DNA of 61,776 bases from a virus: positions 1-61,776 of IMG/VR virus record IMGVR_UViG_3300030333_002148, one strand, 5' to 3'. Made by a program: the position numbers and the translations under genes. The stretch's first letter is position 1. Each line of letters begins with the position of its first letter. The notes below the pieces were generated by a model that saw only the letters and a program-made list of their open reading frames with translations, searched no databases and was not told where the DNA came from. Below, one piece after another: positions 3,108 through 60,870 of this stretch.

Positions 3108-3223
3108 TGCCACAAGGTAAAGGTACATACGGATCCCAAGTAGGTAGACCATCAAAAAAAAGGAGTTCAAATGCCAAGGTTCGGAAAAAGAAGTCGAACA
3201 AGACTAAAAGGCGTAGACGCTAG
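3107..3223 (+). CDS. Basic micro-protein overlapping the endolysin start
   Basis: A 38-residue ORF from ATG 3107, coupled to the previous stop by TAATG, to TAG 3221-3223. It starts MPQGKGTYGSQVGRPSKKR and then becomes almost entirely Lys/Arg (KVRKKKSNKTKRRRR). The N-terminal GKGTYGS-GRP pattern resembles short ORFs I associate with other phage genomes (recollection, not a search). The last 53 bases overlap the endolysin gene in a different frame and supply the Lys/Arg-rich tail. The second cassette copy lacks it. Possibly nucleic-acid binding; uncertain. Confidence 0.5.
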   Translation: MPQGKGTYGSQVGRPSKKRSSNAKVRKKKSNKTKRRRR

Positions 3224-3551
3224 ATTAGTTAATGTATTGAATGAGTTAATAAAGATAATGGATGTGACCATTATTGAAGGATTACGGAGTAAGGAGCGGC
3301 AGCAGGAATTATTAGCACAGGGGAAAACTAAAGTAAAGTATTCCAAACACATGGAAGGAAAAGCTGTTGATCTCGCTCCTTACCCGATAGACTGGAACGA
3401 TAGAGAACGCTTTCATTACATGGGTGGCATGGTAAGAGGTATAGGACATGCACTAGGTTTAAAGATCCGTTGGGGTGGAGACTGGGATTCTGATGGAGAA
3501 ATAAAAGATAATAAGTTTGATGATCTAGTCCATGTAGAGATACGAGATTAA
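3171..3551 (+). CDS. M15-family peptidoglycan peptidase, endolysin (copy 1)
   Basis: This 126-residue protein matches the VanY/L-Ala-D-Glu peptidase (M15) fold. Predicted zinc ligands are His60 and Asp67 in SKHMEGKAVD and His121 in HVEI, with WGGDW at 101-105 before the last ligand. It would cut the peptide part of peptidoglycan at lysis. There is no signal peptide, so release would need the membrane proteins upstream. AAGGAG lies 7-8 bases before the ATG. The copy at 60490-60870 has the same length with roughly 20 substitutions and all three ligands kept. It overlaps the metallophosphoesterase start by one base (TAATG). Confidence 0.92.
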   Translation: MPRFGKRSRTRLKGVDARLVNVLNELIKIMDVTIIEGLRSKERQQELLAQGKTKVKYSKHMEGKAVDLAPYPIDWNDRERFHYMGGMVRGIGHALGLKIRWGGDWDSDGEIKDNKFDDLVHVEIRD

Positions 3552-30345: not shown

Positions 30346-31005
30346 TCATTTTGCCATTAGTGTCATGGATGGAAAGTGAAACAATATCTCTTTCTCATAT
30401 ATATGGTTGTTTGTCACTTTAGATATAGCATTTGTAATAAATGAACCAGCCATGTTGCTACAATAACTTGTTGCTTTGGCTGTACATGGTTCACTACTTG
30501 CATCTTTATCTTCATACCAACATTCTTTATACTTATCAATACTTGGTCTTTTGAATGTATATTGTTGATATGTTTGTGCTCCCATACGTCCGTCTACTAA
30601 TATTAACGGTTTTAATTTCTTTACACTACAAGCTATCTCCACAGCCTGTAATCTACTCGACATGTTATCAAATCCTAAGACTATGATATCATTTCCATGA
30701 GGTATGTATTGAGAATTATCCTTGAATTTATCTTTTTCAGTAATAATAATTGGATTGTCACATATTTCATTTAGATAATCTTCTAATGCATTAACCTTAT
30801 GTTTACCAACATCAGAGAAACCATATTGACTCACACCAATATTTTCTTGAGAAACCTTATCATTATCATATAATGTAAACTTCTCACCACCTGATCTGGC
30901 TATTTGGATGGCTGCGGAACTACCGATAGCTCCGCAACCAAGTATATGGAAATGAAATTTATCAAAGTTATTGAATATGTCTTCAAACCTTGATGTTCTT
31001 CTCAT
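30346..31005 (-). CDS. E1-like (ThiF/MoeB/UBA-type) adenylating enzyme
   Basis: The 219-residue protein has E1-superfamily motifs in order: nucleotide-binding GCGAIGS (23-29), YDNDKVSQENIGVSQ (from 46), KHK near 68-70, and FDNMSSR (112-118), where Asp and Arg are the usual adenylation residues. Cysteines at 174 and 182 (PCTAKATSYC) are candidates for a thiol intermediate. It would activate the C-terminus of a ubiquitin-like protein with ATP. It lacks the extra domains of eukaryotic E1s, as most bacterial and phage forms do. Its start overlaps the JAMM gene by 23 bases, and the ubiquitin-like gene is upstream in the same operon. Confidence 0.85.
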   Translation of the reverse strand: MRRTSRFEDIFNNFDKFHFHILGCGAIGSSAAIQIARSGGEKFTLYDNDKVSQENIGVSQYGFSDVGKHKVNALEDYLNEICDNPIIITEKDKFKDNSQYIPHGNDIIVLGFDNMSSRLQAVEIACSVKKLKPLILVDGRMGAQTYQQYTFKRPSIDKYKECWYEDKDASSEPCTAKATSYCSNMAGSFITNAISKVTNNHIYEKEILFHFPSMTLMAK

Positions 31006-31873
31006 CCTTCTCTCCCAAATTTAAGAAATCCAGCGTATCATATCCAGTATAATATCCACACCTTTCATGTAATTCATTCTCTGTAAATTCAACAATATTA
31101 AAGCTTTGCTTCTTGTTTTCAAGAATAGCATTCCATGATTTTACTGACTTCAACCAATCCTTGAATGTGAATTCACCTTCAGTATACAAACTGTTAAATT
31201 CATCAACTACATCAACAGTGGCTGACAAGAGTGGTTCATCAAAATCAATATCATCTCCTGTCTTTTTTGCAAAGTCTAAACTGCTACCACCATATAATGA
31301 TGTTTGTTGTGGATTTGCCCATGATCTTTTATAACTACCATTCCAATGAGTAATTCCATTAGTAGTTAATTCAGGTTTACTACACAATTTTGATACAGCA
31401 TCTACAACACCTTTTGGTAATTTCTTGGGTTTTGCATCAAGTATCTTTAACTCTATATCTTCATGTGCTTTAATTGGATTCCAAACACTAACTCTGAATT
31501 TATATGCTTGACGAATATTGACCACAAGAAATGCTGACCAATCTCCGCTAGAATATTCTTCCATTGTATCTGTATCTGTAGTAGACCAAAATGCATCCAT
31601 ATTAGCATGTGAATGCCACCATACAAATCTTACACCAGCACCATGCTTTTCAGCACATTTGACATAATAATCTGCTACTGCATCCTTATCCATTTCAGTT
31701 GTACCACCTGTTACTTCTTGTTTTAAGATCTCAGGCTCAGATATGATCATGTTTCCATCTTTATCTGGCATTGCTACCATAAAACCACCTACTTCAGATT
31801 TGAATTGATCATAAGATGCTTGGGCATAATCTATGACCTTCTTCCAATCTTTTTGCGAAATGTAAAAATCCAT
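30983..31873 (-). CDS. JAMM/MPN metalloprotease (deubiquitinase-like)
   Basis: The 296-residue protein has a complete JAMM motif: Glu27 in KSEVGGF, then HSHANMDAFWSTTD, i.e. His87-x-His89 with Ser97 and Asp100 at the exact x7-S-x-x-D spacing. Such zinc proteases cut ubiquitin-like proteins from their targets or trim their C-termini. The C-terminal 150 residues have no recognised domain. Next to an E1 homologue and downstream of a GG-ending beta-grasp protein, the expected substrate is that protein, whose three extra residues after GG would need removal. SD-like AAGGAG precedes the start. Confidence 0.88.
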   Translation of the reverse strand: MDFYISQKDWKKVIDYAQASYDQFKSEVGGFMVAMPDKDGNMIISEPEILKQEVTGGTTEMDKDAVADYYVKCAEKHGAGVRFVWWHSHANMDAFWSTTDTDTMEEYSSGDWSAFLVVNIRQAYKFRVSVWNPIKAHEDIELKILDAKPKKLPKGVVDAVSKLCSKPELTTNGITHWNGSYKRSWANPQQTSLYGGSSLDFAKKTGDDIDFDEPLLSATVDVVDEFNSLYTEGEFTFKDWLKSVKSWNAILENKKQSFNIVEFTENELHERCGYYTGYDTLDFLNLGEKDEKNIKV

Positions 31874-31886
31874 TTCTTCTCCTTTT

Positions 31887-33353
31887 CTAACGTAGATCTT
31901 CTATAACAGCATCGCTGTTATTTCTAACCCATTCTAACATTGAACTTTGTAAATCCTCTTGTGAACTTATTGTTGTATATCTTGTAGGATAGTTGTCATC
32001 AACACCTTCAAAACTCCAGTTGAAATTTCCTGGATATGTATCTTCTGCATTGATTGTTTCTATTTTATCCCAATTTATACTCCCATGCTTAACCCACAAT
32101 ACGAGTCTTTCTCGTTTCAATCTAGTTTCATCTCTCTTAAATCCATCACACATTAACATAAGACGTTCTGAACAATTTGCTTTACAAATAGATTGACGTT
32201 CCGTAGCTGTATCAAGATAAGTTCTCATTTGATTGTAACAGCTTCCAACATCTGTACCAACTATGTCATAATAATTATCATGAACATCTTTATCATGAGT
32301 TCTTGGACTCCCATAATAACCTGTTCTTATGTTATTTAATGGATGAGTATCGCCAACTCTAAATGTTGTCAACCATGAATAAGTAGTTTCACACCACTTT
32401 ACAATATTCATATCTGTAGTATTTAGGTTGTTGAAATTTCCATAACATGAATTACTTGTTTGATTCATTCTAATATTCCATGTATCTGGATGAGTACTCG
32501 GATCTATTTCTCCCTCAGAATAACTTCTACCAGGATACTGAAGAAATGGATGTTTTAATCCTTGTATGATAGGTTTATACCAGAAATCGGATCCACCTAT
32601 TCCAAAAGCACGTCTTCTTGTTGTACCTAATGCATGACTTATAAGTCTAGCTCCATCTATTCTATACATACCTAGAACACTTCCATTGTTAAATCTATAC
32701 ATTGGTGTAGTGCTATCTGATACATATACATTCATGATAATATCTTTGAATGGATGAATAAGATATACCCTAGTACCATGTTCTCTTAATACGATCTTTG
32801 TTTTGTTTTCAGTAAATGAAAATGAATCATTTATAAGTTCATTCAAAAGTTTTTGAAAATCATCAGAGTTATGGTTTTGTTCGTTGTACACATAATATTC
32901 TATATCACAATTATTCATAGATTTATTATATGCTTCAAAGTCATCAAAGGCTGATACAATTTTTTCAATTGCATCTTTCTTTATATCTTCTACAACATCA
33001 TCATCATCAATCCATATTTCATTTCTAAATCTTTTTCTCTGCAACATTCTTTCAACCACACTTAATTGACGTCTGAATCTCATAAGATAATATGCTTGAC
33101 GATTTCTTTCTGGTTTTTCAAATACCTCTAATACGTTCTTATATTTACCTAAGGTTCCCAGAAAGTAAGACCTTAAGTATTCCATTTGATCATATGTTCC
33201 ACGTTTCCATTGAAATTTCTTGGTAACTTCCAATTGAATACCTAGAAAATGAGGTACTTGTTCGTTTAGTTCTTCCACAGCAGTTATAAGATCAGCTTGT
33301 GGGCCGATCGGTATGTGTGAAAAATCCATGTTTTTGATAAATTCTCTTATCAT
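31887..33353 (-). CDS. Large protein of the ubiquitin-like cluster, candidate E2-like/conjugation component
   Basis: The start was set at ATG 33353 (MIREFIKNM), 7 bases after AAAGGAG; the frame continues 26 residues further upstream but through an inverted repeat. The 488-residue protein is not recognised overall. The middle has a stretch with KHPFLQYPGRS, followed by NSCYGNF, which recalls the His-Pro and catalytic-Cys layout of E2 enzymes, though with odd spacing. Later a Cys-rich segment (SICKANCSERLMLMC) could bind metal. Being between the ubiquitin-like protein and the JAMM protease in one operon, it is the natural place for an E2, E3 or target protein. That role is an inference. Confidence 0.5.
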   Translation of the reverse strand: MIREFIKNMDFSHIPIGPQADLITAVEELNEQVPHFLGIQLEVTKKFQWKRGTYDQMEYLRSYFLGTLGKYKNVLEVFEKPERNRQAYYLMRFRRQLSVVERMLQRKRFRNEIWIDDDDVVEDIKKDAIEKIVSAFDDFEAYNKSMNNCDIEYYVYNEQNHNSDDFQKLLNELINDSFSFTENKTKIVLREHGTRVYLIHPFKDIIMNVYVSDSTTPMYRFNNGSVLGMYRIDGARLISHALGTTRRRAFGIGGSDFWYKPIIQGLKHPFLQYPGRSYSEGEIDPSTHPDTWNIRMNQTSNSCYGNFNNLNTTDMNIVKWCETTYSWLTTFRVGDTHPLNNIRTGYYGSPRTHDKDVHDNYYDIVGTDVGSCYNQMRTYLDTATERQSICKANCSERLMLMCDGFKRDETRLKRERLVLWVKHGSINWDKIETINAEDTYPGNFNWSFEGVDDNYPTRYTTISSQEDLQSSMLEWVRNNSDAVIEDLR

Positions 33354-33375
33354 TTTATACTCCTTTATAGTATCA

Positions 33376-33425
33376 GGGGAAATAAAGTACAGGCATATTA
33401 TTTCTAATACGTTAACCAATTCCCC
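33376..33425 (-). other. Short inverted repeat in leader of the 488-residue gene (element 5)
   Basis: GGGGAA (33376-33381) pairs with TTCCCC (33420-33425), 6 bp, around a 38-base loop. It lies between the ubiquitin-like gene and the preferred start at 33353, which supports treating this stretch as leader rather than coding. The stem is the weakest of the series. Confidence 0.45.
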
Positions 33426-33459
33426 CATCAACTATTATCTTAACGGAACCGATAAATGT

Positions 33460-33678
33460 TTATTTACCTTCGCCACCCTTTTTATTGGTCTTTACAACAG
33501 CAACATTATCATTATCACGCAATTGGTGATCATCATTTGCTACTACACGATTCACGTTAATTGCTTCATCCGTAAGATTCAACTCACTCCTTAGCTCACC
33601 TACATTAGATGCACCAGTTGGAGTTGGGATGAAAGCAGCTGTATCTCTGCACAGATTAATGGTTATACCATCTGACAT
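33460..33678 (-). CDS. Ubiquitin-like beta-grasp protein (ThiS/MoaD/Ubl type)
   Basis: The 72-residue protein is read from ATG 33678 with a strong AAGGAGGT. It fits a beta-grasp: strand 1 ITINLCRD, strand 2 FIPTP, helix NVGELRSEL, then INVNRVVANDD and LRDNDNVAVVK, which is the strand pattern of ThiS/MoaD. The C-terminus is KKGGEGK, so a Gly68-Gly69 pair is followed by three residues, as in ubiquitin-like precursors that must be trimmed. E1 and JAMM homologues follow in the same operon. Conjugation to a protein is possible; sulfur transfer in the ThiS/MoaD manner is the main alternative. Confidence 0.75.
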   Translation of the reverse strand: MSDGITINLCRDTAAFIPTPTGASNVGELRSELNLTDEAINVNRVVANDDHQLRDNDNVAVVKTNKKGGEGK

Positions 33679-33838: not shown

Positions 33839-33943
33839 TTAATTTCTCTTTTTTATAATTCTATAATCACCAACGGTTCTTCTTATGTAGTCTAAAAGAG
33901 ATTCAAACTTTCTTGTCGGATGTTTTTTCAATTTATCCTTCAT
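33839..33943 (-). CDS. 34-residue basic ORF after the phosphoesterase gene
   Basis: The ATG at 33943 lies inside the last codons of the phosphoesterase gene (11-base overlap) and reads MKDKLKKHPTRKFESLLD, then YIRRTVGDYRIIKKRN. The gap it fills would otherwise be empty. No good ribosome site precedes it, so translation would be coupled. A short leader peptide or nothing are alternatives. Confidence 0.35.
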   Translation of the reverse strand: MKDKLKKHPTRKFESLLDYIRRTVGDYRIIKKRN

Positions 33944-34586
33944 CTTTAGGATCCGCCTTAAATACTTTCCATATTCCTATTGGGTTAAAGAAACTGAATA
34001 TTGGTTTTATTCTATCAATATAAACCTTTCTATCTTCTGTGTTATCACTATCAAGACCATTAGCTTCCAATATAGATTCTTTCATGAATGGGTTTTTGTT
34101 CTGAGAATAACTTTGCTTGTAATTTGTTTGTGTAAAACATTTATCACGTTCTTCTCTAGACTTTCTTCCCAACTCTTCCAGTCTTTCACCTACTACTGCA
34201 GGTGGTAATTTTCCTGAATCCCATGTAATATGAAGTGGATATCCAGGTATGTACTTTGTCTCTCCATTATCTTCAACTTTTCTATCACATTGATAGTTCA
34301 TATATCCCTGACTTCCTTCATCAAGTATTTCTGGGTATAATACTTTTACCTTTGATGCTAATACTTCACCATCATCATAAATACCTTCATGTATTATCTG
34401 TGTCCAATCACCATCACATACATCTTCTGGAAAATATGGATTTCCTGGTTCATAGTGATATGTTACATGAAAAGGACTTATTTCAAACAGTGCCTTACTA
34501 TTTTCTCTGTCAAGTACTGGATTAACAAGATAAACAGCTGTGAAGATAGGTATTTGACCATCTTCTTGTATTTCTACTTTACTCAT
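33933..34586 (-). CDS. 2H phosphoesterase superfamily protein
   Basis: The start is taken at ATG 34586 (MSKVEIQEDG), after AAAAGGAGATG. This 217-residue protein has two H-x-T motifs about 80 residues apart, FHVTYHY (His40) and LHITWDSGKLPP (His119), the double signature of 2H phosphoesterases (LigT, tRNA-ligase CPDase domains, anti-CBASS Acb1). The sequence following the second motif (GKLPPAVVGERLEEL) is like that of Swiss-army-knife RNA-repair phosphoesterases. Candidate activities are cyclic-phosphate hydrolysis in RNA repair or cleavage of cyclic-nucleotide defence signals; the sequence does not decide between them. Operon-mates are unknown small genes. Confidence 0.72.
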   Translation of the reverse strand: MSKVEIQEDGQIPIFTAVYLVNPVLDRENSKALFEISPFHVTYHYEPGNPYFPEDVCDGDWTQIIHEGIYDDGEVLASKVKVLYPEILDEGSQGYMNYQCDRKVEDNGETKYIPGYPLHITWDSGKLPPAVVGERLEELGRKSREERDKCFTQTNYKQSYSQNKNPFMKESILEANGLDSDNTEDRKVYIDRIKPIFSFFNPIGIWKVFKADPKDEG

Positions 34587-34606
34587 TACATCTCCTTTTA
34601 AATGTA

Positions 34607-34952
34607 GCTGGTGATCTAACCGCTTGGGTTGGAGCAAACAGATGCAAAACATGCGGAGTTTCACATTCAGACCACCAGCATGATCAAAAAACTATGGACT
34701 GGCTCGCTTACGGAGTTGAGATCGTGTACACTTAACTGACCAGTCCAAACTTTGTGCAGCCACTCCCTGCAGAGAAGTGTGGGGCTCACCATTACGCAAC
34801 CCAACCTACATCACATAGGTGCTGCAAATATAAATCTTTAGGCAGACAAGTAGTTGCGAGCATCCCCACAGCATGACCAAATGAGAATCGCATGCCTGCC
34901 TAAATATAAATTTTTGCCTGGTATTATTGTTGGAGAACCAGGCTAACTCCAA
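34607..34952 (-). other. Tandem array of five stem-closed structures ending in a predicted pseudoknot
   Basis: Five perfect inverted pairs follow each other in the 393 bases between genes: GCTGGTG/CACCAGC (34607-34613, 34673-34679), GGACTGG/CCAGTCC (34696-34702, 34740-34746), TGCAGC/GCTGCA (34755-34760, 34821-34826), TTTAGGCAG/CTGCCTAAA (34837-34845, 34896-34904) and GCCTGGT/ACCAGGC (34916-34922, 34937-34943). TTGGAG in the last loop pairs with CTCCAA (34947-34952) outside, giving an H-type pseudoknot. No coding frame or tRNA fits. This is the longest non-coding stretch of the leftward operon. Confidence 0.72.
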
Positions 34953-34980
34953 TTATAAGTTACGCCATTAGGTAAGCCTC

Positions 34981-35169
34981 CTATCTAAATTGTCTCGTTT
35001 TAGTTAAAGGACAAACTATATCATGTTGTGCCTTTTGATTATAAAGGACAGCATATTCATTATTCAATTGATCGAGGTTATCTCTAATCCTCTGAATTTC
35101 TTTGTTCTTTAAATAATTATTAACAAGACTTATTAGTAGAAGGATAGCAATTGCAATGTTATAAACCAT
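34981..35169 (-). CDS. 62-residue protein, N-terminal TM and coiled coil
   Basis: The start is taken at ATG 35169 (MVYNIAIAILLL), with AAAGGAG upstream; an in-frame ATG at 35217 lacks one. A hydrophobic segment at residues 4-20 is followed by a charged helix (NKEIQRIRDNLDQLNNEYAV), so it is likely a membrane-anchored coiled coil. It overlaps the upstream gene by 11 bases. Function unknown. Confidence 0.6.
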   Translation of the reverse strand: MVYNIAIAILLLISLVNNYLKNKEIQRIRDNLDQLNNEYAVLYNQKAQHDIVCPLTKTRQFR

Positions 35170-57912: not shown

Positions 57913-58140
57913 ATGGCTAAAAAAGAAAAAGAACAGAAGCCAGTCTTGAACCTTGATGACAAAGAATATGTTATTGAGGATATGACTGATGAGCAGAAGA
58001 TGATGGTAAATCATATTAATGATCTGCAAAACAAGCAGAATACTAACACTTTTATGGCTGATCAGTTACAAGTTGGTAAGGAAGCGTTTATTAATATGCT
58101 TCGTTCATCATTAGAAAAAGAGGATGAAGTAGTAGAATGA
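57913..58140 (+). CDS. Small charged protein (copy 2)
   Basis: This 75-residue paralogue of 230-508 starts MAKKEKEQKPVLNLDDKEYV and keeps IEDMTD; the rest has lost the middle part and ends in LEKEDEVVE. The leader AACAAGGAGTCAA is the same as in copy 1. It overlaps the next gene by ATGA, as in copy 1. Function unknown. Confidence 0.75.
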   Translation: MAKKEKEQKPVLNLDDKEYVIEDMTDEQKMMVNHINDLQNKQNTNTFMADQLQVGKEAFINMLRSSLEKEDEVVE

Positions 58141-58586
58141 TCATAAGAAGGTGTAGCCAGGGACATCACGTTAGAGTCCATAAAAATACGACTCCGGGTA
58201 CTACCCGTGTAAAAACTTATCCTGATGGAACTACGGAAACCCTGGCTTATCCTTCGGCTTATTCATACTTTGTAGATGTAGATGGTGAGGTTAAAAAGAA
58301 GAGTAATAGCTTTAAGGTGGTAGAAGAATTTTATGTATCTGAATGTGCAAAAAAACATAGTGATGGACATGGTAGGGTGATCATAGGCAAGCATCATTTG
58401 ATAAATGGTGTTGCTACATCCCAAGAAGATTACCCTACAAATTCTAATACTAAATCACAGATACAAGATTTTTATGATAAACGTGGGATCTCTTACGGGT
58501 CTAGTGAAACTAAAGCAGAACTTCTTTCAAGAATTGTTCCTAAATTACATGTGAATAAAGAAGTGTCTAAGCATTTAAAGGTTTAA
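58137..58586 (+). CDS. HeH/SAP-like domain protein (copy 2)
   Basis: The same length (149 residues) as the copy at 505-954. The HeH/SAP-like segment (QIQDFYDKRGISYGSSETKA) is retained, and differences spread over the rest. The DNA shows frequent synonymous changes. A following AGGAG leads into a gene that is not in copy 1. Confidence 0.78.
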   Translation: MIIRRCSQGHHVRVHKNTTPGTTRVKTYPDGTTETLAYPSAYSYFVDVDGEVKKKSNSFKVVEEFYVSECAKKHSDGHGRVIIGKHHLINGVATSQEDYPTNSNTKSQIQDFYDKRGISYGSSETKAELLSRIVPKLHVNKEVSKHLKV

Positions 58587-59164: not shown

Positions 59165-59460
59165 GTGAAAAACCTGATACCGCCAGAAGTTATCGTGCTA
59201 CTGTTCTTGATGATAATGCCATTGTTAGCATTAACCTTAAGTGGCTCGGTCAAATTGCAGTTCTTATTGGAATGTTGGTTTATGGCTATTGGCAAATTGA
59301 AATTCGTATTCAAAACCTTGAAACAAATTTTGAGCAGGCTAATAAAACAATCACAGAGCTTGTCGAAAAACACATAGTAGAAGAGCAAGAAAGATTTGCT
59401 GAAATGGAAGAAGAATTAAAATGGTATCAAAAACTAAGTAATAAAAAGAAGAAGAAATAA
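59161..59460 (+). CDS. Membrane-anchored coiled-coil protein, candidate i-spanin (copy 2)
   Basis: A 99-residue paralogue of 1612-1911 with GTG start, one membrane span (LGQIAVLIGMLVYGYWQI) and the same helical C-terminus (ITELVEKHIVEEQERFAEME) and lysine tail. The membrane span is more diverged than the helix, which is where a partner would bind. Pairs with the lipoprotein upstream. Confidence 0.72.
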   Translation: MSEKPDTARSYRATVLDDNAIVSINLKWLGQIAVLIGMLVYGYWQIEIRIQNLETNFEQANKTITELVEKHIVEEQERFAEMEEELKWYQKLSNKKKKK

Positions 59461-59777
59461 TGGATTTTATGGAGATATATGGCGAAGCTGGAATGATTGG
59501 AGTAGTTGGGGCTATGTTTGTATACCTAGTGGTATCTCTGTCAAATAAATCAGCACAACAGCAAGAAACATTAGAAAAATTAAAAGTTGAAAATAGAGGT
59601 CAAAGTGAGACTCTTGAGAATATGGAAGGAATGGTAATTAAATTAATTAATCGCTGGAATCAATCAGATGATAAACTGGATAGAAAATTTGATGCTATTA
59701 CTAAAGAGATAAATGACCTCGATAATCAAGTTTCAGAATTGAAAGGTTCAATGAGCAGAATTAATGGGCGGCATTAA
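59460..59777 (+). CDS. Single-TM coiled-coil protein, holin-like (copy 2)
   Basis: Nearly identical in protein sequence to 1911-2228 (about five substitutions in 105), with the same membrane span and coiled coil. Many codons differ silently. It overlaps the next gene by 14 bases, again as in copy 1. Confidence 0.72.
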   Translation: MDFMEIYGEAGMIGVVGAMFVYLVVSLSNKSAQQQETLEKLKVENRGQSETLENMEGMVIKLINRWNQSDDKLDRKFDAITKEINDLDNQVSELKGSMSRINGRH

Positions 59778-60335: not shown

Positions 60336-60490
60336 GTATGTTATCTGCGTATATAAAAAGAAAAGTAAAAAAACAAGGTGCAAAAGCTTTTGTACTTAAA
60401 GTGCTTGACGTTATTGTTAAGGCAACCCCTAGTAAAAAAGATGACCAAATGGTTGCTAAGATAAAGAAAGTACTAAACGAATTTGAATAA
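60332..60490 (+). CDS. 52-residue basic protein before endolysin
   Basis: The ATG overlaps the previous stop; the protein begins with basic residues (YIKRKVKKQGAKAFVLKVLD) and ends with an acidic helix (DQMVAKIKKVLNEFE). It occupies the same place as the 75-residue gene of copy 1. The stop overlaps the endolysin start by TAATG. Confidence 0.6.
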   Translation: MSMLSAYIKRKVKKQGAKAFVLKVLDVIVKATPSKKDDQMVAKIKKVLNEFE

Positions 60491-60870
60491 TGTTTAGGTT
60501 CGGAAGAAGAAGTAGAAAGCGTTTAGAAGGTGTAGACGCTAGACTTGTTAATGTTCTTAATGAACTTATTAAGATAATGGATGTTACTGTTATCGAAGGT
60601 GTTCGTTCAGAAGAAAGACAACGAGAACTACTCAAGAAAGGGGCAACCAAAGTCAAGTACAGCAAACACATGAGTGGAAAAGCTGTAGACATCGCTCCCT
60701 ACCCTATAGATTGGGAAGACCGAGAAAGGTTTCACTACATGGGTGGTATGCTTAGAGGTATTGGTCAACAACTAGGCATAAGAGTACGATGGGGCGGAGA
60801 TTGGGATTCAGATGGCGAGATAAAAGATAATAACTTTGATGATTTAGTTCATGTGGAGATACTTGACTAG
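60490..60870 (+). CDS. M15-family peptidoglycan peptidase, endolysin (copy 2)
   Basis: This 126-residue paralogue of 3171-3551 keeps the ligands His60, Asp67 and His121 and the WGGDW segment. Substitutions cluster in the N-terminal helix and on the surface. Translation starts by TAATG overlap, not by a separate ribosome site as in copy 1. The stop overlaps the GTG start of the nozzle gene by one base. Two different endolysins could both be active. Confidence 0.9.
   Translation: MFRFGRRSRKRLEGVDARLVNVLNELIKIMDVTVIEGVRSEERQRELLKKGATKVKYSKHMSGKAVDIAPYPIDWEDRERFHYMGGMLRGIGQQLGIRVRWGGDWDSDGEIKDNNFDDLVHVEILD

Follow-up and report, generated by a model that had tools for sequence, protein, structure and literature searches.

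Natural homo-oligomers of RNA are rare, and the phage ones, GOLLD and ROOL, are structured noncoding RNAs located near tRNAs whose function is obscure. Their symmetric kissing loops were inferred from palindrome-switching covariation, and each is a single RNA of hundreds of nucleotides with a fixed fold, forming cages. The pRNA of phi29 is another phage RNA which multimerises by loop-loop pairing; its two complementary loops differ from each other, and it drives packaging. Phage tRNA arrays are cassette-like RNA arrays in early intergenic regions. A marine GOLLD is located downstream of tRNA-Met, and in OLE the L9.3 loop makes a homodimer contact by means of a covarying palindrome (PMC12286853). 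In the open-licence literature we found no account of arrays such as the one described here.

The window, that is, the whole stretch of DNA analysed (61,776 nt, positions 1 to 61,776 of the IMG/VR virus record IMGVR_UViG_3300030333_002148), contains an array of five structured modules spanning positions 34601-34985 on the minus strand (385 nt). As the first-pass annotation had claimed, five successive stem-closed elements without coding capacity were present between the gene ending at 34981 and the gene starting at 34586; the region had no credible ORF and its GC content was 0.44-0.52, that of the surroundings being about 0.30. The neighbouring genes are all on the minus strand, the same as the RNA, and the order from 5' to 3' on this strand is a Shine-Dalgarno sequence with a two-codon ORF, E5, E4, E3, E2, E1 and gene B. 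Homologues of gene A, which lies upstream of the array, were found in the same position in the relatives L002, L003 and L010. The features are as follows.

34981-35163, minus strand: small gene A, ending in KTRQFR, upstream of the array; start codon ambiguous
34968-34960, minus strand: two-codon ORF ATG-GCG-TAA just upstream of the pseudoknot, with Shine-Dalgarno AGGAGG at 34982-34977
34916-34952, minus strand: E5, H-type pseudoknot; stem 1 34952-34947/34935-34930, stem 2 34943-34937/34922-34916
34837-34904, minus strand: E4 module; closing stem TTTAGGCAG/CTGCCTAAA, inner hairpin, conserved 3' segment CTCGCAACTA
34755-34826, minus strand: E3, four-way cloverleaf-like module; closing TGCAGC/GCTGCA, 7-nt loop TCTGCAG, palindrome CTGCAG at 34772-34767
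34695-34747, minus strand: E2, portable element; covarying closing stem, palindrome GTGTACAC at 34731-34724
34607-34679, minus strand: E1, three-way junction; P1, arm A loop TCCGCAT at 34657-34651, arm B loop CTCCAACC at 34634-34627
33933-34586, minus strand: gene B, 217 aa, downstream of E1; Shine-Dalgarno at 34597-34592

The RNA was assigned to the minus strand, and a plus-strand RNA was rejected, because the flanking genes are on the minus strand, folding is better there and the pseudoknot is sterically normal only on it. When compared with shuffled sequences, the fold of the region gave a z-score of -3.36 on the minus strand versus -0.86 on the plus strand, with values of -4.74 for E1 and -4.77 for E4. 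The interleaved helices GCCTGGT/ACCAGGC and TTGGAG/CTCCAA noticed at first pass were found again and their pseudoknot topology holds: on the minus strand E5 has a stem 1 of 6 bp, a loop 1 of 3 nt, a stem 2 of 7 bp, a loop 2 of 1 nt and a loop 3 of 7 nt, whereas the plus-strand version would require a 3-nt loop to span 7 bp. The pseudoknot had been placed last in the array, but on the minus strand E5 comes first and it is E1 that lies nearest to the gene at 33933-34586. The stems had also been called perfect; they do exist, but the word was an overstatement, E3 being closed by only 6 perfect pairs.

Neither the number of stems nor the fold z-score was accepted as sole proof, both being too weak when set against shuffles and coding controls: 77 of 2000 dinucleotide shuffles (about 4%) contained three perfect, disjoint stems (at least 7 bp, within 90 nt), coding controls reached fold z-scores as low as -1.7 to -2.4, and the fold energy of the region was only modestly better than that of these controls. 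Therefore, the case rests on covariation in relatives, two of which were found via gene B and at least 80 via the terminase. Covariation was found in E2, E5, E1 and E3; E5, E4, E3 and E1 are supported by two to five sequences each. In E5, compared among the window, L002 and L003, two pairs of stem 1 and a single pair of stem 2 show double-compensatory changes, and E5 thus combines the interleaved helices, feasible loops and covariation (three double-compensated pairs) of an H-type pseudoknot. The two-codon ORF, with its strong Shine-Dalgarno sequence, ends 8 nt before this pseudoknot; it is kept as ATG GCG TAA in L002 and ATG GAA TAA in L003, followed in both by CTTATAA. As a suggestion only, a start-stop ORF followed by a pseudoknot might place the ribosome, as it initiates, against the helix of E5. 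E4 is present in L002, L003 and L010 too, with the closing stem maintained in the four phages; its conserved 3' segment reads CCACAACTA in L010, and its inner stem is ATTCTC/GGGGAT versus CTTCTA/TAGAAG in L003. Compared with L002, E3 of the window shows a double compensatory change and several single ones.

E3 received no tRNA call, both ARAGORN and RF00005 found 0 tRNAs or tmRNAs in the window, and the modules were consequently rejected as tRNAs. An Rfam scan of the window region with 4227 families (gathering cut-offs and E<=5) gave no significant match, the one match at E<=5 being a chance-level sRNA with 17.2 bits against a cut-off of 41.2; the scans of relatives gave nothing above threshold but tRNAs.

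E1 was detected in five phages, the window included, with model E-values of 1e-15 to 1e-20; E1-like pattern matches in L006 and L007 were discarded as due to chance. Double changes were observed at three pairs of P1, two of arm A and one of arm B, in a set formed by the window, L003, L010 and L094, to which L100 was added for the arm A hairpin only. In L010 a tiny ORF separates E1 from gene B; in the other four phages E1 directly precedes the gene. Given this adjacency, a link between E1 and gene B is probable, and the association is consistent but limited to five close phages. L012, a terminase relative (93% identical) that lacks the modules of the window, keeps gene B without E1 and has other stem-closed stretches filling the slot, so that the loss of the stems beside kept flanking genes, named at first pass as grounds for refutation, was found in part. 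The gene B protein has two invariant HxT motifs in five aligned homologues, as in 2H phosphoesterases; it had no match in Pfam, PHROG or PDB and its structure model was unreliable (pLDDT 39.5), so the name phosphoesterase rests on the two motifs. The array had been regarded as a leader before a phosphoesterase gene: only E1 is leader-like, and no profile or confident model backs the name. The hairpin of arm A, with loop UCCGCAU and a closing pair of C-G (A-U in L103), was seen elsewhere, in L092 at ~10762 (minus), L100 at 10378 and L103 at 287 (minus), and may be a portable hairpin too, because it recurs in other contexts.

Pattern scans and a covariance model located E2 in 23 viral records besides the window (IMG/VR contigs, not mutually independent). 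It was single-copy in each of the 19 records searched whole and sense to the flanking genes in 17 of the 17 loci examined. Its core of about 36 nt is near-invariant (CAGTTAAG-palindrome-GAT(C)TCAACTCCGTAAGCGA; consensus in RNA letters CAGUYAAG-palindrome-GAUUCAACUCCGUAAGCGA), despite terminases of the carriers being as low as 30% identical. The closing stem varies freely, with both bases changed in compensation at 7 of its pairs, and the covariation score of the whole structure was 0.554, versus 0.19 when shuffled and at most 0.13 when slid. The E2 pattern had no match in bacterial and archaeal genomes (GTDB species genomes); a shorter core pattern hit 14 bacterial or archaeal stretches, all without the remaining E2 parts, four of them scoring a marginal 17-22 bits versus 48-77 for true E2 members. 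Among isolated phages there was no DNA match to the array, E2 matches were at chance level only, and the terminase relatives were only about 25% identical.

The E2 loop shows a palindrome of 8 nt (once 6 nt) in seven sequences: GTGTACAC, GCATATGC, GCACGTGC, GTCTAGAC, AGGTACCT, AGGCCT and GGTCGACC. The palindrome types are GUGUACAC in the window and GUCUAGAC in L102. The inner hexamer is perfect in 7/7 variants, and column permutations gave a mean of about 0.26 perfect variants, 5 being reached once in 200,000. All four Watson-Crick types are present at palindrome pairs 2 and 3, and the central pair, made of adjacent bases, is TA, CG or GC. Adjacent bases are unable to pair within one chain; this central-dinucleotide argument is based on about three independent changes. 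Between L092 and L102, with a DNA identity of 88% over 4.2 kb, GTGTACAC is replaced by GTCTAGAC via one matched double change. As far as the comparison of sequences goes, these variants demonstrate selection for self-complementarity in the E2 loop, and two E2 copies probably stick together through it. The criterion of a central pair that cannot form in one chain was used in the GOLLD, ROOL and OLE study to infer symmetric intermolecular loops (OLE L9.3 and GOLLD L21a; PMC12286853); E2 displays the palindrome-switching covariation used there, which is a likeness in working and not family membership. A stem-closed module, TTCAAGCACTA/TAGTGCTTGAA, with the 8-nt palindrome GGGATCCC, was also observed in the E2-bearing array of L106 (minus, ~1660-1735).

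Relatives keep the flanking genes yet carry different modules of the same build. L003 is without E3 and has an E2-containing RNA elsewhere in the genome, and L002 has two extra modules and a ParB-like gene separating E2 and E1. L003 has a module of ~300 nt in common with L010 (91% identical), and an 87-nt E2-bearing RNA at 97% in common with L091, to which it otherwise bears little similarity. The order is M7-E2 in L005 and E2-M7 in L116, M7 being 94% identical. In a second RNA, marked by ATCACCGATGA and GTAAAAATGCTG, E2 sits at one stem in L088 and at another in L100 and L103; in L103, hairpin E7 occupies the first stem of the RNA marked by ATCACCGATGA. Hairpin E6 (GTCATG..TAGCTAGGTGTAAGCCCTAGGTGACAATA) was seen at 7423 in L078 and at 6765 in L079 (minus), in different closing stems, and is missing from the corresponding stem of L081. 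A true tRNA(CAU) was detected in several relatives, among the modules or in related array regions. Non-coding stretches of ~0.8-1 kb lie at the corresponding region of further phages in the group, L039 (1850-2850), L049 (3500-4650), L081 (6200-7450) and L083 (6950-7900); they fold better on the minus strand, and those of L049 and L081, when scanned, gave no Rfam match besides tRNA. Each module is an independent unit, since a relative may have one but lack another, and both position and order vary among the relatives. The several small RNAs envisaged at first pass are thus borne out, as independent modules, by exchange and reordering in the relatives, whereas one large ribozyme or riboswitch-like leader found no support as a single unit and matched no ribozyme or riboswitch family. 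Nor did E2 have the constant type of downstream gene expected of a riboswitch, since it precedes many unrelated genes in other phages.

A ubiquitin-like set of genes is located in the same window at 30346-33678 (minus):

33460-33678, minus strand: ThiS-like protein, just under the Pfam cut-off
30983-31873, minus strand: JAB-like peptidase, below the Pfam cut-off
30346-31005, minus strand: ThiF/E1-like protein, clear match

A search of 21 records, namely the window and E2-bearing ones, gave ThiF relatives in 11. Three small genes of the left end of the window recur at the right end, diverged and in the same order (505-954 / 58137-58586, 1911-2228 / 59460-59777 and 3171-3551 / 60490-60870).

Comparison among the relatives establishes the structures, their strand, their modularity, the insertion into different helices and the self-complementarity of the seven palindromes. 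We consider it fairly probable that the locus is a transcribed five-module array of structured noncoding RNAs in an early-gene cassette slot, with E2 as a portable homodimerisation domain. The array would be co-transcribed with the minus-strand early genes, and the slot is a cassette site in which modules are acquired, dropped and rearranged by related phages, some with tRNA(CAU). The transcript could perhaps be cut at AT-rich linkers such as AAGAUUUAUACUU. In the cell, the palindrome of the E2 loop would pair with that of a second copy in a symmetric kissing contact, the covarying closing stem would let E2 attach to any helix of another RNA, and dimerisation, by analogy with GOLLD and ROOL, might build a homo-oligomeric RNA scaffold during infection. 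E1 would act in cis on gene B. E2 is found in various arrays and has no constant RNA partner, so that no shared scaffold is apparent, and there was no direct sign of anything larger than a dimer. A further reading, possible but somewhat doubtful, is an RNA construction kit in which scaffold RNAs with open helix ends take plug-in hairpins (E2, E7 and probably E6), E2 being an orthogonal self-dimerisation connector of changeable specificity, so that each phage would assemble its own homo-oligomer.

The modules might instead be unconnected small RNAs, resembling a tRNA island, which act alone, either as decoys for host RNases, toxins or immune sensors or by inhibiting them; an arms race would then explain why they are so varied, and E2 would dimerise only within its own binding mode. 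The reshuffled cassettes, the tRNA(CAU) of neighbouring arrays, the AT-rich linkers and the nearby Ubl/E1/JAB-like genes agree with this, as do the near-invariant cores with free stems expected of protein-binding RNAs, but the modules have no similarity to known decoys and no known target, and E2 often stands at the tip of a larger RNA instead of being free; we find this reading unlikely. Quite unlikely, in our judgement, is a cis-acting leader, in which the modules would set the stability or the translation of the minus-strand genes that follow; a ribosome would stall on the two-codon ORF and pseudoknot at the 5' end of the array, and the CUCC-bearing loops of E1 would regulate gene B. All elements are sense to the genes, the start-stop ORF and pseudoknot are kept in three phages, and E1 adjoins gene B as described; against this stand the unrelated genes behind E2 in other phages, the ParB-like gene between E2 and E1 in L002 and the gene B without E1 in L012.

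All palindrome variants are perfect over six or eight bases and are also potential type II restriction sites, which would suit a DNA-level dyad (a protein site or a cruciform) in place of an RNA contact. However, the sequence varies freely while the symmetry persists, when a DNA-binding site ought to conserve the sequence too, and the remainder of E2 is asymmetric, with covarying stems that include G-U pairs and always sense to the genes, making such a dyad very improbable. That the stems arose by chance in non-coding DNA is practically negligible: their count alone is reached in the shuffles mentioned above, but covariation and conservation in relatives refute chance for E2, E1 and E5 and, more weakly, for E3 and E4.

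With a portable homodimerisation domain as the preferred reading, E2 would constitute a small, easily testable self-assembly system: a domain of 50 nt, inserted into different RNAs, whose seven palindromes are interchangeable. The array suggests that RNA domains are exchanged as insertable parts, like protein domains, and points to several RNA classes not yet described, in a phage group that is abundant but uncultured. Membership in GOLLD, ROOL or OLE was rejected, as no covariance model matched. The phi29 pRNA differs in its unlike loops and its packaging role, and the window gave no Rfam match. Like the phage tRNA arrays, this is a cassette-like early intergenic array, with tRNA(CAU) in the corresponding region of relatives, but its modules are not tRNAs. 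E2 shares with OLE a covarying palindromic loop, whereas OLE is a single large RNA found in cellular bacteria, without sequence or Rfam match to the window. Unlike GOLLD and ROOL, the array consists of short reshuffled modules without Rfam match, among which E2 is portable and about 50 nt long; by analogy, it would resemble these RNAs in mechanism only, and not as a member of either family.
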